A DNA stretch of 64,000 nt from Zoogloeaceae bacterium G21618-S1 (lineage in GTDB: Bacteria > Pseudomonadota > Gammaproteobacteria > Burkholderiales > Rhodocyclaceae), in assembly GCA_027214125.1 (NCBI GenBank), contig JAPWHF010000003.1:186001-250000 (forward strand), read 5' to 3'. The translations under genes and the position numbers were made by a program. Each line of letters opens with the position of its first letter. Positions within the stretch are counted from its first letter, which is position 1. This document shows positions 52,605 through 64,000 of this stretch, piece by piece. The notes under the pieces are model-generated. The model ran no database searches. It had not been told where the DNA came from and saw only the letters and a program-made list of their open reading frames with translations.

Positions 52605-52935
52605 GCCGTGGTCCGCGTCGAGGCGGGCAACTGATCGCTGACCGTTCCTTGTTTTTGGCGCTAAATCGCGCCGTGTTTCCGTTTTTGGTTGCCTGACGTC
52701 GTTGACGCGTCACGCGCCATCTTGGTGCGTATCGACACGTAACACATTCACATATTGGCGATTGACGCGCGATGCGGTCGGCATGCTAGTCTTGAGGCGC
52801 AATCAGCCCGTTGGCATGTCGCGCCGCGCCTGTATCGTTAGCCGATGCATGTCGTGTGAGTGCCCCCCCCAGACAGGCAGCTGGCGGATGTGTTGTGCTC
52901 GAACCCCTTCAATGACTTTTCAGGATAACTCTCGA
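52605..52935. other. intergenic region upstream of the PEP-CTERM protease
   Basis: 331 bp with no convincing gene. It should contain the protease promoter. A C8 run lies at 52863-52870. A GG-N10-GC match at about 52756 (TTGGCGATTGACGCGC) resembles a -24/-12 element only partly, with GCGC replacing TTGC, and is not claimed. Confidence 0.4.
52657..52672 (+). terminator. weak terminator-like hairpin after DUF3306
   Basis: GGCGC and GCGCC arms (5 bp, 6-base loop) lie 52 bp past the stop, flanked by T-rich stretches (GTTTTT before, GTTTCCGTTTTT after). Confidence 0.4.
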
Positions 52936-53964
52936 ATGAACTTCCCTATGCAATCGCGCGGGCGCCTGTCACGGCTTACGCACTTGATGGTCAGCAGCGG
53001 CCTCGTCGTCGGCTGCCTGGCCTTTGGCAGCAGCGCCAATGCCTCGATCAGTTTTACCTTTGACTATTCTGACAACACGGCGGGCGCAGGTTTTCTGGAT
53101 GCCACCTTCGGTGTCGACCGGCAGAACGCACTGGTTACCGCAGGCAATGCCTTTTCCAGCCTGTTCGGCCAGTACTTTACGAATTCCGCCAACATCGTCT
53201 TGAAAGTGACCTCGTCGGACGATCCACAGTCCAGCAACCTGGCGTCTGCCGGTTCGGAGGCGACGTGGGATGGCGTCACCAGCGGCTTTACCTACCAGGA
53301 AGTTGTCCGCAACAAGTTGCTGACCGGAACTGACTTGAACGACGGTGCTGCCGATGGCTCGGTGAATGTTAACTGGGGTCAGCCATGGCATCTTGATCTG
53401 AGCAGCGAAGCGCCTTACGGCCAGTACGACTTCTACTCCACCGTATTTCACGAATTCACCCATGCGATCGGCTTCTCGTCGAGCATCAACCAGGACGGTA
53501 CGTCGGCTTTTGGTGCAGGCGAAAAGGTGTGGAGCGCCTTCGATGAATTCCTCGGCGACAAGAACGGCAACCGGGTGATCCAGCCCGACTATTCGCTCGA
53601 CCCGGCCGCCTGGGCGGCCAGCACCGGCGGCGCAAGCCCGGCCGAGGGCATGTTCTTCTATGGCGCCTACGCGATGGCCGCCAACGGTGGCAATCCGGTG
53701 GGCCTCTACAGTCCGACGACTTGGGAAGACGGCTCGAGCGTGTCTCACCTCGACACCGACAACCCCGCGCTGGAAGCCATGATGATGACGCATGCCGGTC
53801 CGGATGGTCCGTCGCCGCGCGTGTTCTCCGCTGTTGAAGTCGGTGTCCTCCGCGACCTGGGCTACACCGCCGTCGCTGCTGTGCCGGAACCCGAAACCTA
53901 CGCCATGATGCTGGCGGGTCTCGGCCTGGTCGGTTGGCAGGTTCGCCGTCGTCGCGCGGCTTGA
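52936..53964 (+). CDS. PEP-CTERM-anchored zinc metalloprotease
   Basis: A 342-residue secreted protein. A signal peptide ends near ANAS. The zinc site is HEFTHAIGF (ligands His172 and His176, catalytic Glu173), of the NF038122-like metalloprotease type. The C-terminus is a PEP-CTERM sorting signal: VPEPETYAMMLAGLGLVGW then RRRRAA. PEP-CTERM proteins are processed by exosortase in bacteria making exopolysaccharide; no exosortase gene is in this window. CAGGA precedes ATG 52936. The next gene starts at the stop (TGATG). Confidence 0.87.
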   Translation: MNFPMQSRGRLSRLTHLMVSSGLVVGCLAFGSSANASISFTFDYSDNTAGAGFLDATFGVDRQNALVTAGNAFSSLFGQYFTNSANIVLKVTSSDDPQSSNLASAGSEATWDGVTSGFTYQEVVRNKLLTGTDLNDGAADGSVNVNWGQPWHLDLSSEAPYGQYDFYSTVFHEFTHAIGFSSSINQDGTSAFGAGEKVWSAFDEFLGDKNGNRVIQPDYSLDPAAWAASTGGASPAEGMFFYGAYAMAANGGNPVGLYSPTTWEDGSSVSHLDTDNPALEAMMMTHAGPDGPSPRVFSAVEVGVLRDLGYTAVAAVPEPETYAMMLAGLGLVGWQVRRRRAA

Positions 53965-55168: not shown

Positions 55169-56758
55169 ATGCCGTCTGCCTTGACCTATCCCGGCGTCTA
55201 TGTGGAAGAAGTGCCCAGCGGGGTGCGCACCATCACCGGGGTTGCCACTTCCATTACCGCCTTTATCGGTCGCGCCCTGCGTGGACCGGTCAACACGCCG
55301 GTGCGGGTGCAGAGTTTTGCCGAGTATTCGCGCCTGTTTGGCGGGCTCTGGCAACCCAGCACCCTGAGCTATGCGGTGAATCAGTTCTTTCAGCACGGCG
55401 GCAGCGACGCGCTGATCGTACGGGTGTTCAATGGCACGGTGTCGACCAGCACCGCGACCATGACGCTGGCAACGGCGGGCGGTTCCCTGGTGCTCGAAGC
55501 GGCCAGCCCCGGCACCTGGGGCAGCGCCTTGCGCGCCACGGTGGATCACGCCACCCGCGACACCGCCGACACCCTGCTGTTCAACCTGCTCATCGAGGAG
55601 CTCGACCGCCCCGGGGGCACGCGGGCCATTGCCTCCGAGCAGTTCCGCAATGTGTCGGTGGACCCGACCAGCCCGCGCTTCGTGAATACCGTCCTCAACG
55701 AGCAGTCGGCGCTGGTTAACGTGCGGACATCGGCGCCGGCCACTGAAAGCCCGAGCAACGCCACGGTGTCGGTGGCCAACCCGGACGGCACGGCGACCGC
55801 CGCCGGGTCGCTCGGCACCGACGGCAACCCGATTGCCGATGCGCAGATCACCGGCGATCAGAACGCCCGCACCGGCATCTTCGCGCTGGAGTCGGCGGAT
55901 CTGTTCAATCTGTTGTGCATCCCGCCGCGCACGCCGACCAACGACCTGGCCAATGCCACCTGGGCTGCCGCCGCTGCCTACTGCCAGACGCGCCGTGCGA
56001 TGCTGATTGTCGATTCGCCAGCCGCCTGGACGGCCAACCCGAGCACGGCGATTGCCACCGCCGTGGCCGGTGTCAACACGCTACGCGGGGCCATTGGCAA
56101 TGACGCGGCGATCAACGCCACCGCCTACTTCCCGCGCCTGCGCATGCCCGATCCGCTGTCCGAAAACCGCCTCGCCGACTTCGCCCCCTGCGGCGCAGTG
56201 GCCGGCATCATCTCGCGCACCGACGTGCAGCGCGGGGTGTGGAAAGCCCCGGCCGGGCTGGCCGCCAGCTTTTCCGGTGCGCAGGGTCTGACCTACACCA
56301 TGACCGACCCGCAAAATGGCCAGCTCAATCCGATTGGCCTCAACTGCCTGCGCAGCTTCCCGGTGACCGGCCATCTGGTGTGGGGCTCGCGCACCCTGGC
56401 GGGGGCCGATCTGCTGGCCTCGGAGTGGAAGTACCTGCCGGTGCGCCGGCTGGCATTGTTCCTTGAAGAGAGCCTGTTCCGCGGCACCCAGTGGGTCGTG
56501 TTCGAGCCGAACGACGAACCGCTGTGGGGCAACATCCGTCTCAACATCGGCGCCTTCATGCAGACGCTGTTCCGCCAGGGGGCCTTCCAGGGCGCCAGCC
56601 CGCGCGACGCCTATTTTGTGAAGTGCGACCGCGAGACCACCACCCAGAACGACATTGACCGCGGCGTGGTGAACATTCTCGTCGGTTTCGCGCCGCTCAA
56701 GCCGGCCGAGTTCGTGGTGCTCAAAATCCAGCAGATGGCCGGCCAGATCGAGGCCTGA
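55169..56758 (+). CDS. contractile injection system sheath protein
   Basis: A 529-residue phage-tail-sheath protein. The N-terminus YPGVYVEEVPSGVRTITGVATSITAFIGRA is diagnostic. The conserved C-terminal domain contains NPIGLNCLRSFPVTGHLVWGSRTL, WKYLPVRRLALFLEESLFRGTQWVVFEPND and QNDIDRGVVNILVGFAPLKPAEFVVLKIQQ. It polymerises around the tube and contracts to fire. It is the first gene of the operon; only one sheath gene is seen here, while Afp and PVC clusters have several. No capsid, integrase or lysis genes are in the window, which favours an eCIS over a prophage. Confidence 0.95.
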   Translation: MPSALTYPGVYVEEVPSGVRTITGVATSITAFIGRALRGPVNTPVRVQSFAEYSRLFGGLWQPSTLSYAVNQFFQHGGSDALIVRVFNGTVSTSTATMTLATAGGSLVLEAASPGTWGSALRATVDHATRDTADTLLFNLLIEELDRPGGTRAIASEQFRNVSVDPTSPRFVNTVLNEQSALVNVRTSAPATESPSNATVSVANPDGTATAAGSLGTDGNPIADAQITGDQNARTGIFALESADLFNLLCIPPRTPTNDLANATWAAAAAYCQTRRAMLIVDSPAAWTANPSTAIATAVAGVNTLRGAIGNDAAINATAYFPRLRMPDPLSENRLADFAPCGAVAGIISRTDVQRGVWKAPAGLAASFSGAQGLTYTMTDPQNGQLNPIGLNCLRSFPVTGHLVWGSRTLAGADLLASEWKYLPVRRLALFLEESLFRGTQWVVFEPNDEPLWGNIRLNIGAFMQTLFRQGAFQGASPRDAYFVKCDRETTTQNDIDRGVVNILVGFAPLKPAEFVVLKIQQMAGQIEA

Positions 56759-56773
56759 TCAAGGAGAACGCAG

Positions 56774-57298
56774 ATGGCACAGTTCAGCGTCAACACACAG
56801 CGCTTCGACCCGTACAAGAACTTCAAATTCCGGGTGATCTGGGATGGCCGTGCGGTTGCCGGCATCAGCAAGGTCGGTGCGCTCAAGCGCAGCACCGAGC
56901 TGGTCGAGCACCGCGAAGGCGGTGATCCGAGCACCTCGCGCAAGTCGCCCGGGCGCACCAAGTTCGAGGCGATCACGCTGGAGCGTGGCGTTACCCATGA
57001 CGTCGAGTTCGAGCAGTGGGCCAACAAGGTGTGGAATTTCGGCTCGGGCCTGGGCGCCGAGGTCTCGCTCAAGGATTTCCGCAAAGACCTGATCATCCAG
57101 GTCTTCAACGAAGCCGGGCAACTCGTGCTGGCCTACAAGGTGTATCGCTGCTGGGTGTCTGAATACCAGGCCCTGCCCGATCTCGACGCCAATGCCAACG
57201 CCGTCGCCATCCAGACGCTCAAGCTGGAGAACGAGGGCTGGGAGCGCGACTACGATGTGACCGAGCCGAGCGAACCGAGCTTCACCGAACCGGCCTGA
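56774..57298 (+). CDS. contractile injection system inner tube protein
   Basis: A 174-residue T4 gp19-like tube protein. Typical segments are YKNFKFRVIWDGRAVAGISKVGALKRSTELVEHREGGDP, PGRTKFEAITLERGVTHD, FEQWANKVW and the C-terminal ALPDLDANANAVAIQTLKLENEGWERD. It stacks in hexameric rings inside the sheath. It starts 15 bp after the sheath gene with AAGGAGAA upstream. Confidence 0.95.
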   Translation: MAQFSVNTQRFDPYKNFKFRVIWDGRAVAGISKVGALKRSTELVEHREGGDPSTSRKSPGRTKFEAITLERGVTHDVEFEQWANKVWNFGSGLGAEVSLKDFRKDLIIQVFNEAGQLVLAYKVYRCWVSEYQALPDLDANANAVAIQTLKLENEGWERDYDVTEPSEPSFTEPA

Positions 57299-57302
57299 GA
57301 CC

Positions 57303-58013
57303 ATGCTCGCCATTCGCCCGGAACGCCTGCTGTCGGTCTGGGAGCAGGGCGCACGACGCCATCCGATCGATCGCGCCTTGCTGCTCTACGCCCTCGCCGC
57401 GCCCGATCAGCCCGTTGACCAGCTGGCCGATGCGCCTTTGGGCGCGCGCAATGCCGCGCTGATGGCCTTGCGCCGCGCCAGTTTTGGTGCGCGTCTGGCG
57501 TCCTGGGTCGATTGCCCGGCCTGCGGCGAGCGGATGGAGTTCGCGCTCGACGCGGCGGATCTGCCGCCGATGCCGGTTGAAAGTGCGGACCCGATTCTCG
57601 TCGCCGGCCATCGTTTTCGGCGCCCGACCAGTCGGCATCTGGCCGCGCTGGTCAATGCCGACGACCCGGAAGCCGCTGCCCGGCAACTGCTGCGCGACTG
57701 CGCCGAATCGGTCGAAGCCTTGCCGCGCGATGACGCCGCGCTGGCCGAACTGCTCGACGCCGCCGAAGCCGCCATCGAAGCGGCCGACCCCTGGGCCGAA
57801 CTCTCGCTGGCGATCGCCTGCCCGGCCTGCGCCCACGAAACCGAGGCCAGTTTCGACATCGCCAGCTATCTGTGGGAAGAGCTCGACAGCCACGCCCGGC
57901 GCCTGCTCGACGATATCCACGCGCTGGCGGCCGCCTACGGCTGGACCGAGCCGGCAATTCTCGCCCTCAGCGACGCCCGTCGCGCCGCCTACCTCGCCCG
58001 GGTGCGCGCATGA
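57303..58013 (+). CDS. T4 gp26-like baseplate protein/chaperone
   Basis: A 236-residue protein of the T4 baseplate (gp26/51) type, which follows the tube gene in many eCIS and T4-like loci. Residues 1-60 are helical (RPERLLSVWEQGARRHPIDRALLLYALA). Two CxxC pairs, CPACGERMEFAL (about 74) and CPACAHETEASFD (about 178), can form one zinc-ribbon-like unit. The C-terminal half contains SYLWEELDSHARRLLDDIHALAAAYGWTEPAIL, the most conserved family segment. It starts 4 bp after the tube stop and overlaps the next gene by 4 bp. Confidence 0.8.
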   Translation: MLAIRPERLLSVWEQGARRHPIDRALLLYALAAPDQPVDQLADAPLGARNAALMALRRASFGARLASWVDCPACGERMEFALDAADLPPMPVESADPILVAGHRFRRPTSRHLAALVNADDPEAAARQLLRDCAESVEALPRDDAALAELLDAAEAAIEAADPWAELSLAIACPACAHETEASFDIASYLWEELDSHARRLLDDIHALAAAYGWTEPAILALSDARRAAYLARVRA

Positions 58014-58792
58014 GCGGCCTGTTCCGGCGCCTCGCCCGCCACGCCACCGGCCAGTCGCCGGCCACCGTGCACGCCGTGGCCCGCCTGCCGTTCCAGGCGC
58101 CGCCGGAGCTGCGGCCGACCGAGGAAGGCGTGGCCCCGTTGATGGCGCCGGTCGATGGTGCCGACGCCTCCCGAGGCGGCGCGCCCGCCGTGCCGATGCC
58201 AGCCACGGCAACCGAGGCGCCGCCGCATCAGCTCACGCCCCGCTCGGACACATCCGCGCCGACAAGAGCTCAAATACCCCCGCGTGTTCGCACGCCGCAA
58301 CGCACAACGGACAGCGCGGCAGCGCCGACATCGACACCGACGCCCGCCCGTCGGGCCCGTGCGCGAGCGTCTGTCACTGATCGCGCCCAGCCCGGCCGCG
58401 ACCCGCGTGGCGCCGACACCCACGATGCCGTACGGGCTGAAACGCCAAGCGTGCCCGATCGCTTGCTCGATCCTGTCGCAGCGGCCACGGTGGAGGTCGC
58501 ATCGCCTCGAACCGGCGAACAGGGCGCCCTCGGTGCGACACTCACGATTGCACTGCCCGCGCCCCTGCTGCCCACGCAAACGACCTCCGCCGAGCCGAGT
58601 CCGTCCAAACCCGTCTTGGCGACCGCGACCGCGCGCCCCGCCCCCGAACCCACCGAAGTCCACGTCCACATCGGCCGCATCGAAGTCACCGCCGTGCAGG
58701 CTCCCGCGCCCGCCAAACGCCCGGCGCGCACTGGCCAGGCGCCGATGTCGCTGGACGCCTATCTGGCCAAGCGCCAGCGGAGCCCCTCATGA
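58010..58792 (+). CDS. mostly disordered injection-system protein with a conserved C-terminal motif
   Basis: A 260-residue protein. A short helical N-terminus (MSGLFRRLARHATG) is followed by about 180 residues of Pro/Ala/Thr/Arg-rich, probably disordered sequence. The C-terminus has EVHVHIGRIEVTAVQAP and GQAPMSLDAYLAKRQRSP, a motif that recurs in small proteins before DUF4255 genes in eCIS loci (from general knowledge; no alignment done). It overlaps neighbours by 4 bp on both sides. Role unknown; an assembly adaptor is plausible. Confidence 0.65.
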   Translation: MSGLFRRLARHATGQSPATVHAVARLPFQAPPELRPTEEGVAPLMAPVDGADASRGGAPAVPMPATATEAPPHQLTPRSDTSAPTRAQIPPRVRTPQRTTDSAAAPTSTPTPARRARARASVTDRAQPGRDPRGADTHDAVRAETPSVPDRLLDPVAAATVEVASPRTGEQGALGATLTIALPAPLLPTQTTSAEPSPSKPVLATATARPAPEPTEVHVHIGRIEVTAVQAPAPAKRPARTGQAPMSLDAYLAKRQRSPS

Positions 58793-60099
58793 GTACCGCC
58801 CTGGCCATCGCCGGCGTCACCGCCGTGCTGCGCGACCGACTCAACGATGGGCTGGTCAATCACAATGTGGCCGGCGTCACCGGCAGCACGGTGTCGGTCA
58901 CCGTGTTGTCGCCCGACCGCGTGGTGGCCAGCGGCGGCAGCGAGGCCAGCGGGCTCAACGTGTTTCTCTATCAGGTCACGCCCAACACCGGCTGGCGCAA
59001 CGAAGGCCTGCCCTCGCGCGACCCCTCCGGCCGCCATCGCCTCAGCAACGCGCCGTTGGCGCTCGATCTGCACTACCTCATTTCGGCCTACAGCGGCGAC
59101 GACCTGCACGCCGAGATCCTGATCGGCTACGCCATGCAGCTCATGCACGAGTTTCCGGTGATCACCCGCGAGATGATCCAGACCGCGCTCAACCCCTCGC
59201 CCGATGTCGGCCTCGACCTGCCGCCGGCCCTGCGTGCGCTGGCCGAGTGCGGGCTGGCCGATCAGCTCGAACAGCTCAAGATCACCCCGCAGTTTCTCAA
59301 CATCGAAGAGATGTCCAAGCTGTGGACCGCCACCCAGTCCAACTACCGGCCGTCCATCGCCTACCAGGTGTCGGTGGTGCTGATCGAAGCCACCCGCCCG
59401 ACGCGCCCCGGCTTGCCGGTGCTCAGTCGCGGCGAGGTCGATCCGGTGTCCGGTCGCGAGCGCGGCGTGGTCGTCACCCCTAGCCTGATTCCGCCGCTGC
59501 CCATGCTCGAAGCCGTGGTGCCGGCCGGCCATCAGCCGGTGGTGCGCCTTGGCGAATCGACCAGCCTCGAAGGCCATCACCTCGACGGCACGGCGCGCGA
59601 GGTGCATCTGCGCAACGAGCGCTTCGGTGTGGATGAACTCATCGCCGCCACCGGTCCCAACGCCGCCGACCGCATGGTGCTGGTCATTCCGGTCTCGCGC
59701 GCGGCGGACTTTCCGGTCGGGGTGTACGACGTCACCGGCCATGTCGTCCGTCCGGGCGACACCCATGCCCGCGAAACCAACCGCCTCGCCGCCATCGTCG
59801 CGCCCAATATCACCAATCTGCCGCAGGCCGTGGTGCGCGACGGCGCCGGCGACGCCCACATCACGCTCACCTTCACCCCCGCGCTGCGCCCGGGGCAGAC
59901 CGTGTCGCTGCTCATCGGGCAGGTCGAAGTCGGCCCCGAGAGCTTCGTCGCGCCCACCACCACGCTCGACTTCATCGTCGAAGACGCCGACCCCGGCGCC
60001 CCGCTGGCCCGCCTGCGCATCGACGGCATCGAAAGCCCGGTGGCCGACCGCAGCACCACGCCGCCCACCTTCTTCAACCACCGCATCACCATCACATGA
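58789..60099 (+). CDS. DUF4255/Afp16-like tail terminator, extended form
   Basis: A 436-residue protein. The first 190 residues are a DUF4255 (Pvc16_N) domain: VTAVLRDRLNDGL, GLNVFLYQVTPNTGWRNEGLPSRD, APLALDLHYLISAYSGDDLHAEILIGYAMQLMHEFPVI. In Afp/PVC the related protein caps the tube-sheath end and sets length. The remaining 240 residues include two stretches of beta-rich, Ig-like sequence (MLEAVVPAGHQPVVRLGESTSLEGHHLDG; VRDGAGDAHITLTFTPALRPGQTVSLLIG). It is longer than the roughly 290-residue canonical Afp16. ATGA overlaps at both ends. Confidence 0.87.
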   Translation: MSTALAIAGVTAVLRDRLNDGLVNHNVAGVTGSTVSVTVLSPDRVVASGGSEASGLNVFLYQVTPNTGWRNEGLPSRDPSGRHRLSNAPLALDLHYLISAYSGDDLHAEILIGYAMQLMHEFPVITREMIQTALNPSPDVGLDLPPALRALAECGLADQLEQLKITPQFLNIEEMSKLWTATQSNYRPSIAYQVSVVLIEATRPTRPGLPVLSRGEVDPVSGRERGVVVTPSLIPPLPMLEAVVPAGHQPVVRLGESTSLEGHHLDGTAREVHLRNERFGVDELIAATGPNAADRMVLVIPVSRAADFPVGVYDVTGHVVRPGDTHARETNRLAAIVAPNITNLPQAVVRDGAGDAHITLTFTPALRPGQTVSLLIGQVEVGPESFVAPTTTLDFIVEDADPGAPLARLRIDGIESPVADRSTTPPTFFNHRITIT

Positions 60100-62009
60100 A
60101 CGCCCCACGCGAGCTCGACTGGACCACCGCCAACCAGCACCTGCTGGTGGCCGAGTTCGCACGTCTGCGGGCGCGGCTGGGCGAGGGCGATACGGCCGAG
60201 GCCGACCAGCAGTGCCAGGCGGCCGGGCAGTGTCTGCCCGCGCCGGCGGCCATTGATACCCTGGTGGCCTTGTTTGAACTCAGCGACTTCGAGCGCGACC
60301 TGCTCCTGCTGGCGGCTGGCGCCGAGATGGACGCCCGCCTCGCCGCGCTGTGTGCCGAGGTCGCCGGCCTGCCGCAACGCCCGTGGCCGACTTTTGGTCT
60401 GGCACTCGCCGCCCTGCCCGACCCGCACTGGAGCGCGCTCACCCCGGTGGCGCCGCTGCGCCGCTGGCGGCTGATGGAGGTCGACGAGAGCGCCGGCCTC
60501 ACTGCCGGCCGCCTCAGGCTTGACGAGCGGGTGCTGCACTTCATCGCCGGCCTCAACTATCTCGACCACCGCCTCGCCGCCCTGCTCGAGACCGTACCGC
60601 CCGCCGCGCTGATGGCCGCGGCGCACCGGCAGCTTGCCGAGCGCATCGCCGCCCAACTCGGCGATCAGGCCGGCCGCCTGCCCGTGGTGATGCTCACCGG
60701 CGACGATGCCGACGGCCAGCAGGATGTGGCCGACACCGTGGCGCAGACGCTGGGGGTGTCGCTGTTTCGCCTGCGCGCCGCCGATATTCCGACGGCGCCA
60801 CACGAGCAAGCGTCGCTGCTCAGCCTGTGGCAGCGCGAAGCCGCGCTGCTCGGCGCCGCTCTGCTGGTGACTCACACCGATGAGGCCGCGGCGACAGTCG
60901 GCCGCTTCCTCGATCAGATTGATGGCCTGGTGATCGTTGCCGGTGCTGTCGCGCCGTCCATCGACGGCGACCGCCTGCACTTCGTCGCCGACAAGCCCGA
61001 AGCTCCCGGCCAGCGCGCGCTGTGGCAGGCCGCGCTGGGCGAGGCGGCCGATGCGCTGTCCGCCACGCTCGACGGCCTCGCCAGCCAGTACCGTCTCAGC
61101 GCGCGGCGCATCGCTGCCAGCGTGCGCCAACTCGATACCATCGATCCGGCGCAGGCTGCCGCTGCGCTGCACCGGCGCTGCCGTGGCGACGGCAACGCGC
61201 TGAGCGATATGGCCCAGGCCATCGACGTGCGCGCCAATTGGGACGACCTGATCCTGCCCGAAGCCCAGCGCCGCGCCCTGCAACAGCTCGCGGTGCACGC
61301 CCGCCACCGCATCACCGTGCATCACGACTGGGGCTTTGCCGGCAAGAGCGCACGTGGCCTCGGCATCGCCACCTTGTTCAGCGGCGACAGCGGCACCGGC
61401 AAAACCCTGGCCGCCGAAGTGCTGGCCGGCGAACTCGGCCTCGCGCTCTACCGCATCGACTTGTCGGCGGTGATCAGCAAATACATCGGAGAGACCGAAA
61501 AGAACCTGCGCAAGGTCTTCGATGCGGCCGAAGACATCGGCGCGTTGCTGCTCTTCGACGAGGCCGACGCGCTCTTCGGCAAGCGCAGCGAGGTCAAGGA
61601 CAGCCACGACCGCTACGCCAACATCGAAGTCAGCTACCTGCTCCAGCGCATGGAGGCCTACCGCGGGCTGGCGATCCTCACCACCAATCACAAGTCCGCG
61701 CTCGACACCGCCTTCAGCCGCCGGCTGCGCTTCGTGGTGCATTTCCCCTACCCCGACGCCGTTCAGCGCGACGCCATCTGGCGCAGCATCTTCCCTGCCG
61801 CCACGCCGCTGGGCGATATCGACTACGCCAAGCTCGCCCGGCTCAACGCCACTGGTGGCAGCATCCGCAACATCGCCCTCTCGGCCGCCTTTCTCGCCGC
61901 CGAAGCCGGCACGCCGGTCAGCATGGCCCACCTGCTGCGCGCCGCCCACCTCGAAGCCGCCAAGCGCGAGAAGTCGCCCACCGACGCCGAAACCCGGGGG
62001 TGGGTATGA
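60096..62009 (+). CDS. Afp15-like AAA+ ATPase of the injection system
   Basis: A 637-residue cytosolic ATPase. The C-terminal AAA+ domain has Walker A GDSGTGKT (430-437), Walker B LLLFDEADALFGKR, sensor-1 LTTNHKSALD and an arginine finger region FSRRLRFVVHFPYPD. The central part (about 200-400) looks like a second AAA module but its P-loop is degenerate (TGDDADGQQ) and probably inactive. The N-terminal 150 residues resemble the winged-helix region of Afp15/Pvc15. The partner ATPase in Afp is needed for assembly; here it follows the tail terminator gene. Confidence 0.92.
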   Translation: MNAPRELDWTTANQHLLVAEFARLRARLGEGDTAEADQQCQAAGQCLPAPAAIDTLVALFELSDFERDLLLLAAGAEMDARLAALCAEVAGLPQRPWPTFGLALAALPDPHWSALTPVAPLRRWRLMEVDESAGLTAGRLRLDERVLHFIAGLNYLDHRLAALLETVPPAALMAAAHRQLAERIAAQLGDQAGRLPVVMLTGDDADGQQDVADTVAQTLGVSLFRLRAADIPTAPHEQASLLSLWQREAALLGAALLVTHTDEAAATVGRFLDQIDGLVIVAGAVAPSIDGDRLHFVADKPEAPGQRALWQAALGEAADALSATLDGLASQYRLSARRIAASVRQLDTIDPAQAAAALHRRCRGDGNALSDMAQAIDVRANWDDLILPEAQRRALQQLAVHARHRITVHHDWGFAGKSARGLGIATLFSGDSGTGKTLAAEVLAGELGLALYRIDLSAVISKYIGETEKNLRKVFDAAEDIGALLLFDEADALFGKRSEVKDSHDRYANIEVSYLLQRMEAYRGLAILTTNHKSALDTAFSRRLRFVVHFPYPDAVQRDAIWRSIFPAATPLGDIDYAKLARLNATGGSIRNIALSAAFLAAEAGTPVSMAHLLRAAHLEAAKREKSPTDAETRGWV

Positions 62010-62260
62010 CGCGCATCGTTCTGCACATCGACAAGCTGGTGCTTACCGGCATCGACCGGCACGACGCCGATGCCGTCGCCGCTGGCGTGCAGGCCGAGCT
62101 GCAACGCCTGCTCGCCCAACCTGGTGCGGCCGGCACGCTGACGGGCGGCGGTGATCGGCGCCGCATCCATGCCGGCGCCGTGTCATTGACGCAAGACGGG
62201 GGTGGCCGGGCCATGGGGCAGGCCATCGCCGGGCGCATCGTGCAGGCGGGCAAGCCATGA
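62006..62260 (+). CDS. small conserved-looking injection-system protein
   Basis: An 84-residue soluble protein starting MTRIVLHIDKLVLTGIDRHDADAVA, with a predicted beta-strand then helix (AGVQAELQRLLAQPG) and a C-terminal GRAMGQAIAGRIVQAGKP. It overlaps the ATPase stop and the next start by 4 bp (ATGA at each). Small proteins of this type sit next to DUF4157 genes in eCIS clusters; I know no assigned function. It may assist loading of the neighbouring protein. Confidence 0.7.
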   Translation: MTRIVLHIDKLVLTGIDRHDADAVAAGVQAELQRLLAQPGAAGTLTGGGDRRRIHAGAVSLTQDGGGRAMGQAIAGRIVQAGKP

Positions 62261-64000
62261 GCCAGAGCACCGCGCTTCGCGCTGCGCAGCCGACGCCTGC
62301 TACCGATACCGGGGTGTTGCAGCGCCAGTGCGCCTGCGGCCAGGCGGCCGGCCCGCTCAGTGGCGAGTGTGAAGACTGCGCCCGCAAGCAGGCGCTCGGC
62401 CTTCAGCGCAAGCTGGCCATCGGCCGCAGCGACGATCCGCTCGAAACCGAGGCGGACCGCGTGGCCGAGGCCGTCATGCGTCAGCCGGACGCTGGCGCGG
62501 CACAGCGGGGCCACGGCAGGCCAAGGGCCAGCATGTCGGTGTCCCACCACATCCAGCGGCGCGCGGTCGCGTCGCCGCACGAAGGCGGGGTGCCGCCCGT
62601 GGTGCACGAAGTGCTCAGCGCGCCCGGCCGCCGGCTCGACGCGTCGGCGCGGCAGTTTTTCGAGCCGCGATTTGGCCGTGACTTCGGCGACATTCGCATC
62701 CACACCGGGCCGCGCGCCGACGCCTCGGCGCAGGCCGTGGGCGCGCGGGCCTACACGGTGGGCCGCGATGTCGCCTTTGCCGACGGACACTACGCGCCCG
62801 ACACCGCCACGGGCCGGCAACTGCTGGCCCATGAATTGACCCATGTCGTCCAGCAGCGCGGTGGTGCGGCCATGCTGCGCCGCGCGCCGGCCCCGTCGCC
62901 GGTGCCCGGTGGCGTGCCGGGCGGCGTACCGGGCGTGCCCGGCGGTGCCTTGCCGCCCGGTCGCATACCCGGCATGCCGCCCACCGCGGCCCCGACCGCG
63001 CAGCCGTCGGTGCCGGCCAGTGCCGTGTGCCCGGCCTGCGCCTGCAACGCCGATCAGGTGACCCGCATCGAGGCGGGCCGCAGCAAGGCCAAAAGCGTGT
63101 TCGACCGCGCGGCCGCTTTGCTGGTGAGTCCGGCGCCGGCCATCGCGCGGCAGTTCGAGAACACCTTCGGTTCGGGCAGCAACACCCCCAAAACCCTGGC
63201 CGAGACCGCCGACCGCTACCGCGCCGCGGCCAGCTTTCTGGGGCAGAGCACGGTGTCCGATCCGCCCGGCTCGGGCACGGTGCACTGCGACCCGACCAAC
63301 AGCACCGATCTGTGCCGCACCGGGGCTACCGCCCACTATGGCCAGGGGCATATCGTGGTGTGCACCGGCAGTCCGGCGGCCAGTCAGATGCTCAACCCAC
63401 CACGCGCGCCGACGGTCTATCGCGTCGAGGGCGAGGCGGGCAGCACCGAAGGCGTCCGCCAGGTGCCCGACGCCGCCGCCACCGACGCCGCCCAGGCCGC
63501 CTCCGACGCGGGCTTTGCCACGCGTGTCACGGCGGTGATGGCGCACGAGGCGATCCATCACGTGGTGCAGCCGGGCATCGTCGATATCTACACCAATGAA
63601 CGCCTGTTCCAGTTTCTCGGCGCGGGCTCGAAGAAGCTCGATGTCGACCTCTCTCCGCTGGCCTTGCAGAACCCCGACAGTCTGGTGCTGTTCGCATTTC
63701 GCGGCGTGGTTGCCGATGCAGGCGCCGATGCCCTGCCGGGCGCCGACGCGGCACTCGAAAGCTCCGAGAAGTTCTCCGGCAAGCTCGCCGTGCGGCCGGT
63801 GCTCGGGCGGCGCCGGGCCCGTCTGAGCGTGGCGCTGGCCGAAGAGGCGATCGCCCAGGCCGGTGAGCGGCTCGGCGTGCTGCTGACGGAAGTCCAGTCG
63901 GTGCAGGGTGGCCCGAGCCAGTGGTCGGCTTTTCCGGCGTTGTCGCAGCAGGTTGTCACTTCGCTGACCACGCTGGGCAAGGAGACCGATTTTGGCCAGC
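62257..64000 (+). CDS. DUF4157 protein, candidate injection-system cargo (partial, runs off the window)
   Basis: At least 581 residues, open to the window end. Residues 26-45 hold a Cys motif (CACG...CEDC) followed by LGLQRKLAIG, a typical eCIS DUF4157 N-terminus. The DUF4157 domain (about 110-205) contains FFEPRFGRDFGDIRIHTG, ARAYTVGRDVAF and the metallopeptidase-like HELTHVVQQ (His192, Glu193, His196). A Gly/Pro-rich linker follows (about 209-250), then a second domain with a separate HEAIHH (His430, Glu431, His434). DUF4157 is enriched among eCIS-associated toxins/effectors (established), so this is the best cargo candidate. Start ATG overlaps the preceding stop by 4 bp. Confidence 0.82.
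   Translation, partial: MSQSTALRAAQPTPATDTGVLQRQCACGQAAGPLSGECEDCARKQALGLQRKLAIGRSDDPLETEADRVAEAVMRQPDAGAAQRGHGRPRASMSVSHHIQRRAVASPHEGGVPPVVHEVLSAPGRRLDASARQFFEPRFGRDFGDIRIHTGPRADASAQAVGARAYTVGRDVAFADGHYAPDTATGRQLLAHELTHVVQQRGGAAMLRRAPAPSPVPGGVPGGVPGVPGGALPPGRIPGMPPTAAPTAQPSVPASAVCPACACNADQVTRIEAGRSKAKSVFDRAAALLVSPAPAIARQFENTFGSGSNTPKTLAETADRYRAAASFLGQSTVSDPPGSGTVHCDPTNSTDLCRTGATAHYGQGHIVVCTGSPAASQMLNPPRAPTVYRVEGEAGSTEGVRQVPDAAATDAAQAASDAGFATRVTAVMAHEAIHHVVQPGIVDIYTNERLFQFLGAGSKKLDVDLSPLALQNPDSLVLFAFRGVVADAGADALPGADAALESSEKFSGKLAVRPVLGRRRARLSVALAEEAIAQAGERLGVLLTEVQSVQGGPSQWSAFPALSQQVVTSLTTLGKETDFGQ

Follow-up and report, generated by a model that had tools for sequence, protein, structure and literature searches.

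DUF4157 domains are associated with effectors of extracellular contractile injection systems (eCIS) in the available text of two reports (PMC8213781, PMC11297309), the second of which lists 983 of 1130 predicted DUF4157 eCIS effectors without an annotated payload. As far as the accessible parts of two further papers go, autoproteolysis by the N-terminal DUF4157 domain has been predicted for PVC-metallopeptidase toxins (Zhang 2012, PMC3482391), and Cgo1 of AlgoCIS is a tube cargo with two HExxH sites that fills the tube (Xu 2022, PMC8894135). The architecture of DUF4157 with a C-terminal toxin, and of two HExxH sites in one chain, is already known. Here we describe gene A, from a 64,000-nucleotide stretch of Zoogloeaceae bacterium G21618-S1 (the window; contig JAPWHF010000003.1, G000:C33:186001-250000, C33 coordinates being those of the parent contig). 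Gene A is probably an effector of the eCIS encoded around it, in which a DUF4157 delivery module would be joined to an Asp-zincin protease payload active after delivery to an oxidising compartment. This reading draws on domain identities from profiles and a predicted fold, active-site conservation, the eCIS context and payload swapping between congeners.

The frame of gene A opens with an ATG at 62257 and stays open up to the window end (581 residues); the full gene, retrieved from the parent genome, has 677 residues and a TGA stop, ends 290 bases past the window, and comprises the following parts.

62257..64000, running on to C33:250290, + strand: gene A, probable eCIS cargo (open reading frame and parent genome)
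62329..62379, + strand: Cys-rich N-terminal motif CxC-x10-CxxC, residues 25-41 (sequence)
62431..62478, + strand: ExEAD helix DPLETEADRVAEAVM at about residues 59-74, with E63 as a candidate for the third zinc ligand of DUF4157, upstream of HExxH
62635..62865, + strand: eCIS_core/DUF4157, residues 127-203 (Pfam PF13699, E 2e-32)
62830..62844, + strand: HELTH, residues 192-196, within HExxHxxQ (sequence)
62881..63012, + strand: Pro/Gly/Ala linker, residues 209-252 (sequence)
63028..63726, + strand: Asp-zincin-like (deuterolysin/M35-like) domain, about residues 258-490 (profile and predicted fold)
63544..63561, + strand: HEAIHH, residues 430-435, predicted ligands H430 and H434, predicted catalytic E431 (alignment A4)
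63583..63585, + strand: D443, predicted third zinc ligand, HExxH-x8-D, GxxD (A4 and deuterolysin alignment)
63670..63681, + strand: NPDS, residues 472-475, counterpart of the M35 NADS/NADN motif (A4)
63727..64000, continuing beyond the window, + strand: C-terminal helical tail, residues 491-677, without a clear family (low-confidence predicted helices)

The first-pass annotation had described a Cys-rich N-terminus, a DUF4157 domain with HELTH, a Gly/Pro linker and a second motif, HEAIHH, and each of these was recovered. The leader cysteines are C25, C27, C38 and C41, six more lie in the second domain (258, 261, 263, 344, 353 and 369), and PF13699 scores 111.7 bits against a curated cut-off of 22, with HELTHVVQ fitting the DUF4157/PVC-metallopeptidase signature HExxHxxQ. 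Apart from eCIS_core, gene A has no Pfam match up to E 1; searches of Pfam, NCBIfam, PADLOC and PHROGs returned eCIS_core only, and nothing matched a structural component.

A second zinc-metallopeptidase-like domain had also been proposed, and profile and structure-prediction searches of the C-terminal half support its identification, on sequence and model, as an Asp-zincin-like zinc-peptidase domain. HEAIHH is invariant in five aligned orthologous sequences, one of which (L009) is a 3' part only. In the nine rows of alignment A4, H430, E431, H434 and D443 are invariant, as are the N, D and S of NPDS, so that the HExxH and the Asp that mark an Asp-zincin (HEXXHXXGXXD in the available text of PMC3890501) are both present. 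D443 aligns with the Asp of GTED in deuterolysin (HMMER alignment to 1eb6), and the predicted fold is that of an Asp-zincin, with the second HExxH placed at the deuterolysin zinc site. Families missing from the VIA-align structure-match list are not thereby excluded, and a first AlphaFold model of the whole C-terminal half, with a predicted local distance difference test score of 42, was left out of the fold search. DUF4157-Aspzincin proteins were found at five further loci (L012, L022, L148, L149 and L051), in each of which DUF4157 precedes the Asp-zincin; L051 and L148 score above the Pfam cut-off of Aspzincin_M35 (PF14521), and L012, L022, L148 and L149 share 22-27% identity with the Denitromonas sequence L007 across the domain. 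An orphan payload missed by Pfam is in this way recognisable as a protease fold, via bridging cargo proteins of other lineages. The Asp-zincin cargos at L148 and L051 also carry a peptidoglycan-binding domain (L148 has a weak OmpA match as well), hinting at bacterial envelopes as the target.

Several observations weigh against this assignment and the function built on it. Gene A alone matches nothing for the domain in Pfam, NCBIfam or the PDB: PF14521 gave no match to gene A (E <=1) or to the separate domain of L007, L008 and the window (E <=10), and neither phmmer with gene A nor a Denitromonas-only profile found a match in the PDB. The first-pass statement that the domain resembles no familiar family holds for single-sequence searches of these three databases and fails at the level of profiles and folds. 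The assignment depends on the bridging sequences: a hidden Markov model of nine M35 and four bridging domains scores gene A at 0.039 and its orthologs at 7e-4 to 0.015, and the hhalign probabilities, 74% and 82%, lie below 95%. A MAFFT alignment without the bridging rows L148 and L149 (A6) loses the NPDS columns; alignment A7, with viral-contig rows, retains the N and D. Because three M35-like viral-contig rows stand in the alignment behind the model, the model is not entirely independent of the profile. The M35 motif GTXDXXYG (available text of PMC7215534 and PMC12924839) agrees with GIVDIYTN of gene A at G and D only, and the domain is therefore filed as Asp-zincin-like, not as an M35 member. 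No immunity gene was recognised, although no search aimed at one was made. Finally, the accessible text on Cgo1 describes inhibition of E. coli independent of both HExxH motifs, point mutants remaining toxic (PMC8894135). By that precedent both zinc sites of gene A might be catalytically idle or dispensable and the cargo effect need neither motif; we consider this unlikely, as none of the nine divergent sequences departs from the ligand and catalytic residues of the second site, a constancy not expected of idle sites.

Other kinships of the C-terminal half found no support: DUF922 scored 17.2, and homology of the tail with those of L148 and L149 scored 12.9, where the best of 50 shuffles reached 16.9. 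The separate C-terminal part of L007 weakly matches phrog_1958, 'minor tail protein' (0.0031, residues 297-385, in the tail), and that of L008 matches DUF7032 at 0.11.

DUF4157 C-termini were surveyed for an HExxH in 75 of 114 proteins, cut proteins, C-termini shorter than 60 residues and cores without HExxH having been dropped. The motif occurs in 25 of the 75 proteins, 11 of them genes A, B (the second DUF4157 cargo of the operon) and their orthologs, and in 14 of 44 clusters, which is not a population frequency since the sample was biased toward loci fetched with gene A and the best-scoring survey loci. Over 500 residue shuffles the mean was 0.33 clusters with HExxH and the maximum three. 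Ortholog invariance, the shuffle test and conservation in A4 together rule out a chance motif.

In the HMMER alignment to 1eb6, C263, C344, C353 and C369 align with four deuterolysin cysteines, which we take to form two disulfides (6-78 and 85-103). C344 and C369 are present in nine of nine A4 rows and C353 in eight; C263 is kept in the five orthologs only, the remaining rows having a gap or another residue there, with L148 and L149 carrying a Cys two columns ahead. If the cysteines pair in gene A, we infer that folding and activity of the payload should be confined to an oxidising environment. The N-terminal half, made up of the Cys-rich leader, the ExEAD helix and DUF4157, would serve as a shared module for cargo recognition and tube loading, with cargo processing as a possible further function. 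Behind the Pro/Gly linker, the payload would be an Asp-zincin protease of deuterolysin fold, its zinc held by H430, H434 and D443 with E431 as general base, followed by the helical tail, to which no role is assigned. Because the cysteines aligned with deuterolysin's four are kept, the reducing conditions of cytoplasm and tube probably leave this payload inactive or unfolded, and it would switch on in an oxidising compartment, for example the periplasm of a target bacterium. Judged from sequence and model, action as a cargo protease is likely, and the exact residues are now open to test (E431, D443 and the pairs C263/C344 and C353/C369). That the domain is instead a cytosol-acting Asp-zincin effector like NleC or GtgA, with a eukaryotic target and no action at the envelope, appears very unlikely.

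Gene A lies among the following neighbours.

55169..56758, + strand: tail sheath (Pfam Phage_sheath_1C, 2.7e-10)
56774..57298, + strand: tail tube protein, gp19 (Pfam, 1.6e-44)
57303..58013, + strand: T4_baseplate-like protein (Pfam, 9.2e-06)
58010..58792, + strand: eCIS operon gene, function unassigned, without a Pfam match at E <=0.01
58789..60099, + strand: Pvc16-like protein (Pfam Pvc16_N, 1.2e-49)
60096..62009, + strand: eCIS AAA+ ATPase, Pvc15-like by position (Pfam AAA, 7.5e-25)
62006..62260, + strand: 84-residue small protein between ATPase and gene A, without a Pfam family
C33:250287-251858 (L005:4288-5859): gene B, second DUF4157 cargo, 523 residues counting the start Met
C33:251855-253225 (L005:5856-7226): gene C, third DUF4157 protein, 456 residues

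Gene C is followed by a CIS_tube-like protein and, after a base_V spike protein, a PAAR-like one (both of these likenesses below cut-off), then by gp25, by two baseplate proteins of TIGR02243 and by a protein with DUF6519. Sheath, tube, baseplate, base_V spike, ATPase and Pvc16 all exceed their Pfam cut-offs, and these neighbours therefore identify an eCIS operon, in the middle of which sit three DUF4157 proteins. The translational coupling of gene A to the ATPase and the small protein noted at first pass is borne out by real 4-base overlaps, but it does not single out these genes, as such overlaps link the whole stretch from ATPase through small protein and genes A and B to gene C. Relatives of the small protein, a possible loading adaptor, occur in those loci of the genus that extend this far (L007, L008, L010, L029, L167 and, in part, L168), including both congeners with other cargo. 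The C-terminus of gene B is DUF922-like with HEQGH (1.1e-05; 26.1 bits, cut-off 27), and genes A and B place two different zincin-like payloads side by side in one operon. Gene C follows gene B in L005, L007, L008, L010 and L167; in the window genome it is without leader cysteines, and its C-terminal half is without a Pfam family. Outside the operon, at 52702-53964 of the window, lies another HExxH protein (HEFTHAIGF) whose C-terminus presumably resembles a PEP-CTERM sorting signal.

We infer that the source genus is Denitromonas, and the C-terminal half of gene A occurs in Denitromonas loci L007, L008 and L010 and in L009, from a metagenome-assembled genome. Strong matches were confined to six of 249 family genomes, all of the same genus (six of its ten genomes, and six of the eight of good quality), and a single-sequence query with the part inside the window matched one of 299 genomes of a phylum sample, its own. 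Plasmid records, phage records and IMG/VR held no match to the C-terminal half; profile A2 also matched 20 other family genomes weakly (E 0.008-0.1), often in repeated short frames with a stop, and these matches were taken as chance. Two congeners without the Asp-zincin, G357 and G472, carry the same eCIS, with best-piece identities of 80% and 74% for the sheath, 92% and 91% for the tube, 66% and 60% for the ATPase and 63% and 45% for the small protein. At the place of gene A, G357 has a DUF4157 protein with a weakly Tlde1-like domain (L167:9164-10954; 0.0095, below cut-off), whose HG...SxGCI we take to be the motif of L,D-transpeptidases, followed by relatives of gene B (73% over the C-terminal part, in two halves in different frames) and gene C (65%, C-terminal part). 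In G472 that position is taken by a single cargo, in which DUF4157 is combined with Tse3_N (5.1e-8) and with an HETGH region that weakly resembles M90 (2.7e-4, below cut-off); the congener cargo of this make-up at L168:6890-8848 also matches ATLF weakly in another part. The syntenic eCIS of Luteimonas L021 (tube 85%) includes a DUF4157 protein with a weak likeness to DUF922. The constant N-terminus with C-termini swapped at the syntenic locus of two congeners is the pattern of PVC polymorphic toxins, and a kept machine with a changed payload marks an effector module; together with the operon context it upholds the first-pass proposal of an eCIS cargo. The same evidence bears on a processing protease, in which the second domain or DUF4157 would cut the chain or neighbouring cargo and would not be a toxin. 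The linker between the two domains, the autoproteolysis predicted for N-terminal DUF4157 in the available text of PMC3482391 and the further DUF4157 cargos next door fit such a role, yet other domains take the toxin position of the Asp-zincin at syntenic loci, where a processing role in the operon would favour retention, and DUF4157 is already the proposed processing domain; we regard it as unlikely and keep to the effector reading.

The first HExxH raises a separate matter. The DUF4157 signature is HExxHxxQ-E, with the Glu on a helix after HExxH (available text of Zhang 2012, PMC3482391), and the third ligand of VgrG2b, E983, likewise lies downstream in the accessible part of its description (PMC6899460). 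Gene A has no ExEA in the 80 residues after HExxH; its ExEAD helix lies 129 residues ahead, and is read here, from sequence, as another position of the same helix, with Pfam membership unaffected. Among 97 of the 114 DUF4157 proteins (the rest being without HExxHxxQ or cut), strict ExEA was confined to the upstream side in 65 and to the downstream side in 12, while none had it on both sides and 20 on neither, and a looser pattern gave 73, 12, 1 and 11. Residue shuffles predict ExEA in 4.7% of proteins over 150 residues and in 2.6% over 80. The upstream helix, ND..YEQEAD.MAD.VM, resembles the downstream one, NDD..LE.EAD.MGAKA; of the 12 proteins with a downstream helix, L055 is an exception to this likeness, and gene C with its orthologs accounts for four. 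Within this one operon the helix precedes HExxH in genes A and B and follows it in gene C, which in the window genome is leaderless, with QREGEARQAAHSV in a stretch directly behind HExxHxxQQ; the G357 ortholog, alike elsewhere, is without this stretch, and DALERDADRTAARVL stands in a leader ahead of its core. When the upstream helix is included, a DUF4157 profile gives a weak match to BepA of M48 (0.039), the helix falling on the BepA ExEAD behind HExxH as a second stretch, not significant alone. The third-ligand helix of DUF4157 may hence stand in a swapped or permuted position; a literature search for permuted DUF4157 found nothing on the subject. More tentatively still, eCIS-cargo DUF4157 could be a permuted M48-like Glu-zincin with its ExEAD helix before or behind the HExxH core, on one side only, and gene A could join a front-helix loading or processing protease to an Asp-zincin payload gated by disulfides, which would be silent in the producer and become active solely in an oxidising target compartment. 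If so, disulfide gating would explain how such cargo is made without a recognised immunity gene. The contrasting helix positions in one operon and in the gene C ortholog make DUF4157 function testable residue by residue.

A literature search lying outside subscription papers and preprints found no eCIS payload described as an Asp-zincin or deuterolysin, and no link between Denitromonas and contractile injection. Cgo1 resembles gene A in its predicted disordered N-terminus, central DUF4157 with HExxH, C-terminal second HExxH and role as eCIS cargo, a likeness of description, not of sequences; its loading was seen by cryo-electron tomography in the accessible text, whereas gene A is known here from sequence and its C-terminus is Asp-zincin-like. 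PVC-metallopeptidase toxins share the constant DUF4157 and the swappable toxin, zincins included (ALF, HopH1, Tox-MPTase3), but the available part of PMC3482391 does not mention deuterolysin or aspzincin, and the ExEAD helix of gene A is upstream. With deuterolysin, GfMEP and AsaP1 (MEROPS M35), gene A shares the predicted fold, HExxH and Asp ligand, N-x-D and aligned cysteines, and differs in its eCIS cargo fusion, degenerate GTXDXXYG, extra inserts and 187-residue tail. According to the portions available, VgrG2b-type toxins of the type VI secretion system are labelled M35 in PMC10673891 and classed as Glu-zincins by Wood 2019 (PMC6899460); the C-terminal domain of VgrG2b is, like part of gene A, a DUF4157-labelled zinc peptidase, and is a periplasmic antibacterial toxin, but in VgrG2b the DUF4157-type domain, with its downstream E983, is itself the toxin.
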